A stretch of DNA of 64,000 nucleotides from Clostridiales bacterium. Lineage in GTDB: Bacteria > Bacillota > Clostridia > Christensenellales > Borkfalkiaceae. Location of the stretch: assembly GCA_015055805.1 (NCBI GenBank), contig SVHN01000001.1:241982-305981 (forward strand). Direction: 5' to 3'. Positions 25,479 through 47,046 of the stretch are shown here, one piece after another; position 1 is the stretch's first letter; every line of letters begins with the position of its first letter. Below the pieces are notes generated by a model that was given only the letters and a program-made list of their open reading frames with translations, was not told where the DNA came from and searched no databases. Made by a program: the position numbers and the translations under genes.

Positions 25479-25619
25479 ATGAAAAGAAAGTATTTACCCC
25501 CAACGGCATACCTAGATATGCTTGAACCGCTCGACGTGCTTACCACATCAACTACAGGTCAAAGCGTCGACCAAAGTAACGGCGACCATATTCAATACTG
25601 GTCGGACGACGTAATTTAA
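25479..25619 (+). CDS. 46-aa peptide MKRKYLPPTAYLDMLEPLDVLTTSTTGQSVDQSNGDHIQYWSDDVI
   Basis: Strong SD (aaaggagg), in tight operon context, carries VDQxNGDHIQYW shared with the upstream lipoprotein C-terminus; absent from the ORF track. Confidence 0.75.
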   Translation: MKRKYLPPTAYLDMLEPLDVLTTSTTGQSVDQSNGDHIQYWSDDVI

Positions 25620-25632
25620 GGAGGAAAAAGTC

Positions 25633-27567
25633 ATGACTAAGAAAAACGTATTGTTAAAACTTCTAGTTTTCTGTTCAGCAATCTGTATGGCGTTATGCGC
25701 GTTTACGTTTATACCCAAACAGACCTTAGCAGCAACCGACCTTCCTTCTGTATCCACAATCTATATGAGCGAGGGCGCAGAAGTAAGATTAAAGTCCACT
25801 GATGGTGAATATAAAGACGTTACGGGTATTCGTTTTACTATGCTAGTAAATAAAGATTACTATGATGAATTAACCGATTCTAAACTAACTATTTACGTTG
25901 ACGAAGCAACCGTAAAGACCGAAGCCGATATGAAAGATAGTGCAAAAGCATCAACTTCACGCTTTACTTATAACTGCGAAAAACTCGTTACGCACGCGGC
26001 AGGCGAAAAGGCGCAAGAGGCAGTTTATAGCTTTAACGCTGTCGTTGCAGGTCTTCCGTCAGAAAACTTCGGTACTAAACTTATAGCAAACGGCTGTATT
26101 AAAGTAGGTAATAGTGAGCCTGTTTTTGCAACTAATCCTCAAACCAGATCAATATCACAGGTTGCAAGTAGCGCGCTTGCAGATAATATCGCAGACGACG
26201 AGTTCGGCACGTTAAAATCATACGTGGACGGAGCAGTTGACGTATCCAACTTTAAGTTTGGCAACACTTCTATTACTACCGACCTTTATAAAACGGCAGA
26301 ACCCACCGTCAACGCAACTATACCCGAGAACTTAACACCTATTTGGACTAGTAGCGACACAGAAGTTGCAACGGTAAATCAAAACGGTGAAATAACCCGT
26401 GGCGAAAAACTTGGCACAACGACCATAACGGCAAAACTCGGCACAATAAGCCGCACGGCAACAGTCAAGGTTGGCGAACCTAACGTCAATAAGGTTGTAA
26501 ATGGAACACATAAAAATTATAGTGTTAATAATGACACTTCTTTACTAGGTTTTGCTAGTGCTGATACATTGACAGACTTTACAGGTGAAACCTACATGGG
26601 AAATGCCGCAACAGTTAAGCCTGTTTCGTCCTATTCTATAGGATATAAGGTTAAAAACAATTACACGTTAGACGAACTTAATAGAATTGCAGAAGATTAT
26701 AATACTGTTACGTTATATTACGCTGTAAATCTTACTGAATTAGCAAGTGGCGGATATCTAAATTTCTTGACTTCGAAAAACTATAATTCTTTCACGGAAA
26801 ATAGCTTTTTTGGTAAGGCTGGTATTTATGGGACAAAGTATGTAAGTGCAAATAAAGTATGGAACAAGGTTTCTATAAGCATATCTGATTATATTGCTAT
26901 AGCAACAGAAAGCGAAGGAGTAGCAACGTCTTCCGTGGTCTTATTTGGGTTAGGTAATCCAAGCAATATAAGTGCGGATAGTTCAAAAATCTATATCAGC
27001 GACATTATTTTTGAATTAGTTGTTTCTCCAGAAATACTTACTGTAACTTCAGCTAACTATAAAACGTTTAATTATAATGGAAACACAACTACAACTTATT
27101 TAAATTATGCAGCGGCAGGATCTACTGAATTGAGTGCTATAAGTGGTGACTATGAAGGTAATGCGGCTAGATATAAACCAGTAGGTGCTTTTAACGGAGA
27201 GTATAGAGTACTTAATACTTTGACACAAACAGATTTTGCTACGTTAAAAAAAGTATATAATAGCGTTTCTTTATGGTGGGCGTTCAGTTTAACTAAAACT
27301 GCAGACAGTCATTATATAAATTTCCTTGCTGAATCTGGCGGCGGCAAAAGTTTCCTTTTGACTGCGGGAATATCAAGTACGAGGTCCACAACTTCTAATA
27401 AGCATCAAGTGTGGCAAAAGGCAACTATTTCAATAGATGATTATATAGCTCTTTTAGAAGCGAATAATTATACTCATTGCGTATTATTCGGATTAGGTGG
27501 ACCTGTTGGAATTGATCAAAGCAATTCTGCTATCTACATCGGCGATATATTCTTTGAAAACGTTTAA
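25633..27567 (+). CDS. Large secreted protein: N-terminal 'GIRF' domain, BIG2-like domain, two tandem locus-1 modules
   Basis: Signal 'MTKKNVLLKLLVFCSAICMALCAFTFIPKQTLA'; 'PIWTSSDTEVATVNQNGEITRGEKLGTTTITAKLG' BIG2-like. Confidence 0.8.
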   Translation: MTKKNVLLKLLVFCSAICMALCAFTFIPKQTLAATDLPSVSTIYMSEGAEVRLKSTDGEYKDVTGIRFTMLVNKDYYDELTDSKLTIYVDEATVKTEADMKDSAKASTSRFTYNCEKLVTHAAGEKAQEAVYSFNAVVAGLPSENFGTKLIANGCIKVGNSEPVFATNPQTRSISQVASSALADNIADDEFGTLKSYVDGAVDVSNFKFGNTSITTDLYKTAEPTVNATIPENLTPIWTSSDTEVATVNQNGEITRGEKLGTTTITAKLGTISRTATVKVGEPNVNKVVNGTHKNYSVNNDTSLLGFASADTLTDFTGETYMGNAATVKPVSSYSIGYKVKNNYTLDELNRIAEDYNTVTLYYAVNLTELASGGYLNFLTSKNYNSFTENSFFGKAGIYGTKYVSANKVWNKVSISISDYIAIATESEGVATSSVVLFGLGNPSNISADSSKIYISDIIFELVVSPEILTVTSANYKTFNYNGNTTTTYLNYAAAGSTELSAISGDYEGNAARYKPVGAFNGEYRVLNTLTQTDFATLKKVYNSVSLWWAFSLTKTADSHYINFLAESGGGKSFLLTAGISSTRSTTSNKHQVWQKATISIDDYIALLEANNYTHCVLFGLGGPVGIDQSNSAIYIGDIFFENV

Positions 27568-27598
27568 GAATAATAATAACAATTAATTAAAAGCACGA

Positions 27599-27627
27599 CC
27601 GACCGTGTAAAATAGCACGGTCGGGTT
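27599..27627 (+). terminator. Hairpin CCGACCGTG-taaaatag-CACGGTCGGGTTT
   Basis: Inverted repeat with short T tract after the locus 1 operon. Confidence 0.65.
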
Positions 27628-27679
27628 TGGTGCGCAAAATATCACAAAAAATCTTAGCAAAAATTAGGAGAAAAGGACA

Positions 27680-45118: not shown

Positions 45119-45180
45119 ATTTTAGAAAAGTTTTGAGTTTTGTTGTTTATTAAAGATAAGATTATTTGATGTACATCATA

Positions 45181-45222
45181 GGTAACTTCTACCGCTGGAT
45201 TTTTCCAGCGGTAGGAAGTTCC
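45181..45222 (+). other. Long intercistronic hairpin without T-tract
   Basis: GGTAACTTC-TACCGCTGGA-tttt-TCCAGCGGTAG-GAAGTTCC. Confidence 0.6.
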
Positions 45223-45257
45223 CTAATATAGCGTTTATTTTAATTAAGGGAAATAAG

Positions 45258-45404
45258 ATGAAGAAAAAAATATTGTTGATTATGATGGCGGTTTTATGCG
45301 TTTTAACGTGCGCATTTTCCGCTTGTAAACAAGATAAGCCTGACGTAGAGAGTCCGCCTGTTGGGGAATATAACGACCCAGTAATGGACGATATTTACGC
45401 ATAA
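45258..45404 (+). CDS. 48-aa mini-lipoprotein MKKKILLIMMAVLCVLTCAFSACKQDKPDVESPPVGEYNDPVMDDIYA
   Basis: Signal peptide, lipobox FSAC, tail YNDPVMDDIYA resembling YDPSLDDVYx; absent from the ORF track. Confidence 0.78.
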   Translation: MKKKILLIMMAVLCVLTCAFSACKQDKPDVESPPVGEYNDPVMDDIYA

Positions 45405-45414
45405 GGAGAAAAAT

Positions 45415-47046
45415 ATGAAAAGAGAACAAAAGGTTATTTTAACTTGGCTTTTGTCCTTTATTGCAACTATTTGTTTGTTGCTTGGTTTTTTTGCGATTTT
45501 ACCGCAAAAAGCGGTGGCATCGTCGGAAGATTTTTCTATGACCAAAGCAGAAGTTCGTTTGGACGATAATAGCGGTATACGCTTTACGGCAAAACTAACT
45601 GCATCTGCTTACGAAGATAATTGTGAATATTACGTTATGATAATCCCTTACGATTGGTTTGACGAATATAACTTATCGTTCGGTGATGATTATTATGACG
45701 TTTTGATAAATGAATATGAAATAAAGCCTGAAGACGTGTTGATTATGCGCTCGTCGCCTGTTCAGCAAACTTCGGGAGACTATCTCATTTCAGGTAGTAT
45801 TTCTAAGGTTTTATATAAAAACAGTAACCGTGAGTTTTTCGGTATTGCGTATAAACAGGATAGCGACGGAAAAAGAACTTATGCAACGGAAGATAAGTCG
45901 TACATAAAAAGTCTTGCAGCTGTTGCCGTTGCGGCTACAAAGGTAGAGAACGCTAATTACACTCAAAGTGAAAAGGCTGAGCTTGATTCTATGATACGCC
46001 GTGCGTTCAACCAACTTTCTGGCAAAAAAGAAAATAACCAAGGCGCGATTGTTTTTCAGATGAATACGGCAAAAATGAGCCTTTCTCAAGGTGATACGGC
46101 TAATTTAAGCGTACGATATGCCGAAGAGTTGGGATTTGACGTTGTTTGGGAAAGTCAAGATAAAAGTAAGGCGACGGTGGACAAAAACGGAAAAGTAACC
46201 GCGCTTGTTTCCGAGGGCGTGTGCAGCGTTACGGCAAAAGTATACGGACAGACTTGCACTACCGTGATAATGTTCCGTCCTAAAATGGCAGACAACTTTT
46301 TGGAAGATTTTTCGCACGAAGGTAGCGCGCTTAATATGAACACGAGTAATTGCGGCGACCTAAAACAATCGGGAACGTGGCTAGCAAGTTTTAAAGGGGC
46401 GCAAGGCGTTGGCTATTGTCTTGCTTATAAATCCATGAACGCTTTGGCTGTGCGTTTTGGGCGTAGTTTAGAATACCTAAAGAACTTAGACTTTGATAGT
46501 ATTACCGTTAGGCTTTATATGGATTGGGAAGGCGTGGATAAAAAAACGGGTGAGCCTATAAGAAAACATTCGCTTTGCATCGGAACTAAACGTGAATTAA
46601 ATGTTCCCACTAAAGAGTGGTATGATTTTACCGTTACCAAAAACGAACTGTTATCTAATCGCGAAGGGAATACGGCAAAAGAGCGGCACGAAAATTTTTG
46701 TAAAACCTTTAACAATGCAGGTTCGGGACAATTTTTAATGAGTTTTCACGACGGTAATAATTCCATTCCTATTTATATTGACTCAATAACTTTCGGGTTT
46801 ATTGACGTTGAAAAAAAGGCTGCCCCAACGTCGGCAGGTGAAACGTTTATATTGCCAACGGCAAAGCTTTTAGCTGGTGAAACGATATTATCAGAAGAAT
46901 ATAGTGTAAACGTTAAAGTTGGTGAAACCGAAGTCGCTGTAAATAACGGTGAAATTATAACGCAAAACGGAACTACGGTAGTAGAATATACTTTTATATA
47001 CGACGGTGTTACTTATAAAAAAACGTACGTCTTTGACGTGAATTAA
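45415..47046 (+). CDS. Secreted protein: 'GIRF' domain, BIG2-like domain, one locus-2-type module, C-terminal Ig-like region
   Basis: Signal 'MKREQKVILTWLLSFIATICLLLGFFAILPQKAVA'; 'VVWESQDKSKATVDKNGKVTALVSEGVCSVTAKV'. Confidence 0.8.
   Translation: MKREQKVILTWLLSFIATICLLLGFFAILPQKAVASSEDFSMTKAEVRLDDNSGIRFTAKLTASAYEDNCEYYVMIIPYDWFDEYNLSFGDDYYDVLINEYEIKPEDVLIMRSSPVQQTSGDYLISGSISKVLYKNSNREFFGIAYKQDSDGKRTYATEDKSYIKSLAAVAVAATKVENANYTQSEKAELDSMIRRAFNQLSGKKENNQGAIVFQMNTAKMSLSQGDTANLSVRYAEELGFDVVWESQDKSKATVDKNGKVTALVSEGVCSVTAKVYGQTCTTVIMFRPKMADNFLEDFSHEGSALNMNTSNCGDLKQSGTWLASFKGAQGVGYCLAYKSMNALAVRFGRSLEYLKNLDFDSITVRLYMDWEGVDKKTGEPIRKHSLCIGTKRELNVPTKEWYDFTVTKNELLSNREGNTAKERHENFCKTFNNAGSGQFLMSFHDGNNSIPIYIDSITFGFIDVEKKAAPTSAGETFILPTAKLLAGETILSEEYSVNVKVGETEVAVNNGEIITQNGTTVVEYTFIYDGVTYKKTYVFDVN

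Follow-up and report, generated by a model that had tools for sequence, protein, structure and literature searches.

In a window of 64,000 nucleotides from the genome of a Clostridiales bacterium (contig SVHN01000001.1, positions 241,982 to 305,981), large secreted proteins sharing an N-terminal domain, called here the GIRF domain, are each directly preceded by a short open reading frame (ORF) with a characteristic C-terminal tail. Two of the three short ORFs in the window (ORFs 1 and 2) and their relatives in other genomes are, to judge from their sequences, very likely precursors similar to those of the linear polyphosphorylated peptides (LPPs), which are ribosomally synthesized and post-translationally modified peptides (RiPPs) of Paenibacillus alginolyticus (lppA/K/B/S/D/N; Popov et al., 2026; PMC13381572). 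To the docking of the tails on the GIRF proteins, as suggested by the same sequences, we give slightly less than an even chance, and about an even chance to the combined reading, namely that these are LPP-like peptides whose tail would be an address for docking, specific to the operon and probably recognized by the GIRF protein. What computation established is that the short ORFs form a family, that they are paired with GIRF proteins, that they co-occur with LPP-type machinery and that their tails match in an operon-specific way.

The features concerned are located in the window as follows:

23598..25415, + strand: lipoprotein, 605 aa, with lipobox ...VVSCSNK and C-terminal tail VDQDNGDHIQYWQ at 25374-25412.
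25479..25619, + strand: ORF 1, putative LPP-like precursor, 46 aa, with leader KYLPP...LDVLTTS at 25479-25550 and tail VDQSNGDHIQYW at 25566-25601.
25633..27567, + strand: GIRF-domain secreted protein, 644 aa, with GIRF domain at about 25753-26247 and Big_2 domain.
41037..42806, + strand: lipoprotein, 589 aa, with C-terminal tail DPSLDDVYIP at 42774-42803.
42951..43073, + strand: ORF 2, putative LPP-like precursor, 40 aa, KSYTPAIINLVLLTKDIMNES, with tail DPSLDDVYL at 43044-43070.
43094..45118, + strand: GIRF-domain secreted protein, with GIRF domain at about 43220-43786 (profile E value 4e-69).
45258..45404, + strand: ORF 3, tiny lipoprotein, 48 aa, carrying the tail only (DPVMDDIYA at 45375-45401), with no YxxP leader.
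45415..47046, + strand: GIRF-domain secreted protein, 543 aa, with GIRF domain at 45526-46059 and Big_2 domain.
3..842, + strand: C-terminal end of a fourth GIRF protein, the start and GIRF domain of which (G000:C18:240661-241116) lie upstream of the window.

The first-pass annotation had reported that a short ORF (46, 40, and 48 aa) precedes each of the three complete GIRF proteins, and these ORFs are indeed present, separated from the GIRF starts by 13, 20, and 10 nt (ORFs 1, 2, and 3, respectively). The fourth GIRF protein has to be added, which is likewise preceded, at a distance of 13 nt, by a short ORF outside the window (L049). In the case of the second protein, the ATG at 43094, with gggaggtaag in front, is a likelier start than the mechanical ORF start at 43079. 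The three short ORFs had also been taken to be alike: the tails are real in all of them, but ORF 3 encodes a lipoprotein with a signal peptide and a lipobox cysteine (LTCAFSACKQ) and little beyond its tail, ending in NDPVMDDIYA, and no signal peptide was found in ORFs 1 and 2. ORF 1 ends in VDQSNGDHIQYWSDDVI and the lipoprotein preceding it in VDQDNGDHIQYWQ; ORF 2 ends in YDPSLDDVYL and the lipoprotein in front of it in YDPSLDDVYIP. In a Pfam scan of the three complete GIRF proteins, Big_2 alone scored above the cut-off, with no SLH, dockerin or cohesin domain, and their C-termini carry no LPXTG motif, which agrees with what had been noted about LPXTG and SLH; the three proteins show no anchor of their own.

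The pairing of short ORFs with GIRF proteins extends well beyond the window. Among 201 genomes of the same family, matches to a GIRF-domain profile were found in 70. Of the 68 GIRF ORFs whose 5' end is visible, those of the window included, 48 have a short ORF (37-51 aa) directly in front of them, a Shine-Dalgarno-like site being one of the criteria by which these short ORFs were selected. A lack of such ORFs before GIRF proteins elsewhere, which would have told against the first-pass reading, was looked for and did not refute it, and the association first noticed in the window holds on a wider scale. The median gap between the two ORFs is 12 nt, with some -4 overlaps with the downstream start, and the 48 paired short ORFs consist of 47 of the YxxP kind and the lipoprotein-type ORF 3. 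In the window's own genome (G000, 1.73 Mb), a short ORF precedes all eight GIRF ORFs with a visible start (a count including ORF 3 and two GIRF-like proteins found via their short ORFs, on C4 and at C18:155003); the end of the contig truncates a ninth, on C15. A short-ORF profile (A3), applied blind to GIRF, identified six places in this genome, all six in front of a GIRF-type secreted protein; the E value of ORF 1 in this search was 3.7e-11, ORF 1 itself being part of the profile. With other families included, there are 69 distinct short ORFs that are followed by an ORF, and 56 of these precede a GIRF domain. Genomes carrying the short ORF span 11 of the 18 genera sampled. Searches with single peptides (P0001, P0002) gave almost no matches, and the family emerged from gene context alone. 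Chance and a plain leader-ORF origin were considered as explanations of the pairing, and were given up in view of the conservation, the reciprocal search and the permutation of tails.

Some loci depart from this arrangement. The order seems to be reversed at L187 (G155:C70, 6130-8549, minus strand), where the GIRF protein comes before the short ORF, and at L041 and L062 (genus g30), a small rubredoxin-like gene, instead of a YxxP short ORF, stands in front of the GIRF protein. At L178 (G624:C21, 6308-10078), a secreted-looking protein of 1256 aa directly precedes the LPP precursor of a complete LPP cluster, so that pairing with secreted proteins may extend beyond GIRF.

The short-ORF peptides follow the pattern [K/R]xYxxP, about 15 further residues including D-[VI]-x-x-x-S, and then an acidic, aromatic tail. 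In the 56 GIRF-paired peptides, YxxP is strictly present in 39 and the serine is in frame in 53, 44 of these having an aromatic-to-serine spacing of 18-19. The leader motif is conserved across genera and the tails are variable and lineage-specific, with a mean net charge of -4.4; every tail contains one or more aromatic residues, and none contains cysteine. The published LPP consensus is YxxPxVLxHQxIxFETxxS, with a spacing of 18; in that system, the RiPP recognition element (RRE) binds YxxP, the leader is removed by LppS, and Ser 3 of the core is the residue phosphorylated by LppK (PMC13381572). Like the LPP precursors described in that account, the peptides are thus short and have a YxxP leader with a serine about 18 residues downstream, and the two systems have in common a discrete RRE, an HprK-like kinase, an SpI-like peptidase, a nucleoside triphosphate (NTP) transferase, and a link with surface-polysaccharide genes.

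In the window's own genome, the RRE is a stand-alone PqqD protein (C10:111796-112059; PF05402, 2.5e-18), the best PDB match of which is the lasso peptide RRE TbiB1 (E value 5.5e-6). It is adjoined on C10 by an HprK-like P-loop protein (APSGTGKST), which gave only weak matches, below the cut-off, to ScmC and HprK-related models; a gene of the same kind lies next to the RRE and precursor genes in G624. The SpI-like peptidase is encoded at C1:8657-9121, and strong matches to it occur in 86 of the 201 genomes, 85 of which have PqqD. The NTP transferase (NTP_transf_5, PF14907) is present in two copies on C12, inside a sugar-nucleotide (capsule-type) locus. There, at L287 (G000:C12:31376-33782), the tandem NTP_transf_5 genes stand beside sugar-nucleotide epimerase and dehydratase genes, which recalls the reported link between LPPs and capsules. 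The enzymes are therefore scattered (C10, C1, C12) apart from the precursors, and the single cluster by which an LPP system is recognized is absent from this genome. Precursor and enzymes are clustered in other genomes: within the family, the order is short ORF-HprK-PqqD-SpI in G089 and short ORF-PqqD in G070, while in other families the same leader adjoins PqqD, HprK-like, SpI-like, ABC, and NTP-transferase genes, as in the row short ORF-HprK-PqqD-SpI-ABC-NTP transferase of G624, a cluster including an MsbA-like exporter gene. Over the 201 genomes, the numbers having both elements, the first only, the second only, and neither, uncorrected for shared ancestry, are 80/7/7/107 for short ORF and PqqD, 80/7/6/108 for short ORF and SpI, 69/18/6/108 for short ORF and NTP transferase, and 85/2/1/113 for PqqD and SpI-like peptidase.

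The tails of the short ORFs match those of the genes in front of them in an operon-specific manner. A gene ending no more than 420 nt upstream was available for 44 short ORFs, and 27 of these genes bear a lipobox according to a pattern test. The summed score of each tail against its own upstream C-terminus was 866, as compared with 678 +/- 27 and a maximum of 831 in 20,000 permutations (p<=5e-5); the result held without the two operons of the window (p=2e-4). It is the lipoproteins that carry the signal (p<=5e-5), which is not clear in the other upstream genes (p=0.09). In the window, the tail of the 605-aa lipoprotein scored 73 against that of ORF 1, the mean over all tails being 19.5. Beyond it, clear matches were found in G164 (DPARDDIY/DPGRDDIY), G017 (GGYIEDPFGG/GGFIGDVFGG), G033 (YDSDIY/DADIF), and G020 (DKVWG/DKTWG), and weaker ones in G159 and G002. 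In G164 (L247), five of the seven identical tail residues are encoded by different codons, and these synonymous differences point to a constraint at the protein level rather than to recent copying. In the first window operon, eight codons are identical between the two tails (aac ggc gac cat att caa tac tgg). A homologue (P0036) of the 589-aa lipoprotein, with which it is 42% identical, keeps the tail as DPHADDLYRA; the tail is not present in the other homologues examined (P0031-P0034). At L252 (G033), the tail motif occurs twice at the C-terminus of the upstream lipoprotein (YDSDIFGF...YDSDIYERKV).

The similarity between GIRF domains goes with that between tails (rho 0.19, p 0.001; 56 operons) and not with that between leaders (rho -0.006, p 0.53). 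The correlation with the tails persists without the close pairs and is weaker for the 150 aa following the GIRF domain. For example, NGDHIQYW in the window and NGDHLQGW in G176 both stand in front of GIRF domains of the GIRFTM.VN.DYY type, and DPSLDDVY in the window and DPGRDDIY in G164 stand in front of related GIRF domains. Neither Pfam nor NCBIfam has a name for the GIRF domain or the short ORFs. A Foldseek search with the full GIRF protein yielded only a generic Ig-chain architecture, and the isolated domain (45526-46059), which was modelled with a mean pLDDT of 89.5, gave weak beta-sandwich matches only (the best being CBM21, TM-score 0.39), so that no function is claimed from the fold.

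The phosphorylation, processing, export, binding, and anchoring that we infer would run as follows. Many scattered precursors, one per GIRF protein, would be served in trans by a single set of enzymes: binding of the YxxP leader would fall to the RRE (PqqD/LppB-like), phosphorylation of the conserved serine 18-19 residues downstream to the HprK-like kinase (LppK-like), and cleavage just before this serine to the SpI-like peptidase (LppS-like). Comparison with the published LPP system supports these three steps. The NTP transferase, which has sugar-nucleotide-making genes as neighbours, may add to the phosphate, and the remaining core with its operon-specific acidic, aromatic tail would be exported; outside the cell, the tail would most likely act as an address binding the cognate GIRF protein and holding it near the membrane or a surface glycan. 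These last steps, the NTP transferase addition, the export and the extracellular address, are those that we infer. ORF 3 is a telling variant, with the same kind of tail on a lipid anchor, and the lipoprotein tail, the lipid-anchored tail and the phospho-peptide tail may be three presentations of one address at the membrane. More tentatively, and with some doubt on our part, the phosphorylated core might be tied through its modified serine to the membrane or a glycan and capture the neighbouring GIRF protein by its tail, lipoproteins with the same tail competing for the dock or sharing it, which would amount to an attachment independent of sortase. The idea in the first-pass annotation that the tails are docking ligands linking lipoproteins to secreted proteins is partly supported, namely by the operon-wise matching, with synonymous differences in the clearest cases beyond the window, and by the tail-GIRF correlation; but ORFs 1 and 2 lack a signal peptide and resemble LPP precursors, so that the idea misses what these short ORFs are and by what route they would reach the surface.

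Several observations weigh against LPP-like peptides with a docking tail. ORF 3 has no YxxP leader, and the published consensus is not matched in full, HQ and FET being absent and D-[VI]-x-x-x-S present instead. A matching tail was found in about 8 of the 44 upstream genes, and about 20 of the 27 lipobox-bearing ones are without one. No short ORF precedes 20 of the 68 GIRF ORFs, which partly belong to other subfamilies (L046, L067, and L026 look N-terminally membrane-anchored); since several of the proteins concerned have an ordinary, cleavable signal peptide, the link, although strong, has exceptions. No phylogenetic correction was applied to the co-occurrence statistic, and operon co-inheritance or shared descent could account for some of the correlation between GIRF domains and tails. 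In the window's own genome LppD, the exporter, was not identified, no search having been aimed at it because ABC proteins are too common.

The same peptides might be secreted signals or inhibitors, with the GIRF protein as receptor, sponge or immunity partner and the lipoprotein tails as decoys or means of self-recognition. LPPs and the related paeninodin lasso peptides have been gained and lost in the patchy manner that is typical of conflict genes (PMC13381572), the tails are variable and lineage-specific, and receptor-ligand co-evolution would also fit their correlation with GIRF domains. However, the GIRF proteins are large and multi-domain, accompanied by sugar ABC transporters in the window operons, and not of the size of immunity proteins, and docking more readily explains why lipoproteins of the operon carry the same tail; we consider such a role unlikely. 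It also seems rather improbable that the tails dock while their leaders resemble those of LPPs by coincidence, in which case the short ORFs would be simple secreted small proteins or cytoplasmic helpers of GIRF secretion. The tail matching and ORF 3, a lipid-anchored tail and nothing more, would suit this explanation, but a signal peptide is lacking in ORFs 1 and 2, and the RRE, kinase, and peptidase are nearly co-extensive with the short ORFs and adjoin them in several genomes.

The sharing of tails might, on the other hand, be a functionless by-product of local duplication or gene conversion, as the eight identical codons of the first window operon could suggest. The codon differences in G164 and the retention of a DPxxDDxY tail by the distant lipoprotein homologue speak against this, and we consider it improbable. 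That the short ORFs are regulatory or translation-coupling leaders, the sequence of which is of little importance, is highly improbable: the short median gap and the -4 overlaps are in keeping with coupling, but the motif is conserved across genera, the tails match at the protein level despite synonymous changes, and the machinery occurs together with the ORFs.

The enzymes and the type of precursor are already known from the LPP system. The differences from that system are that the precursors studied here are numerous and spread over the genome, each preceding a GIRF secreted protein, that the core tail is common to a lipoprotein in some operons, that the enzymes are unlinked in this genus, that the leader is without HQ and FET, and that the peptides are known from genes alone. 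The multi-copy layout with one precursor per secreted protein and the tail shared with lipoproteins were not met in the portions of the LPP literature considered (PMC13381572), and descriptions elsewhere are possible. With paeninodin-like lasso peptides, the system shares an RRE related to lasso B1 and tailoring enzymes of the same kinds (kinase and NTP transferase), and it differs from them in that the leader has Y, as against the W usual in lasso leaders of Bacillota, and that neither a lasso cyclase (macrolactam synthase C) nor a B2 peptidase was found at the RRE locus of the window's genome, no genome-wide search having been made. Cohesin-dockerin pairs, sortase (LPXTG) and SLH domains serve the same purpose of holding secreted proteins on the cell, whereas the tie proposed here would be a peptide tail common to a lipoprotein and a RiPP core.

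The two window operons (16115-27567 and 33515-47046) are alike in layout, each comprising a pair of ABC permeases, one solute-binding and one large lipoprotein (848/829 aa), two further lipoproteins, a short ORF, and a GIRF protein, and they look like paralogous glycan-use operons. A contig scan for an independent homologue of ORF 3 gave a single locus, on SVHH01000006.1 (Clostridiales bacterium SIG379), which is 100% identical to the window over 22 kb and therefore provides no independent evidence.

The biological role of LPPs and of paeninodin-type phosphopeptides is stated to be unknown (PMC13381572). In the present case, LPP-like precursors occur in several copies per genome within one bacterial family, closely associated with secreted proteins of a single kind, and in some operons a lipoprotein carries the same variable tail. 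This turns the question of LPP function into a binding test with short peptides. Sortase-independent attachment, if it were to prove true, would give LPPs their first function, and the reading given here, if right, would add a new means by which Gram-positive-type bacteria position proteins on the cell surface.

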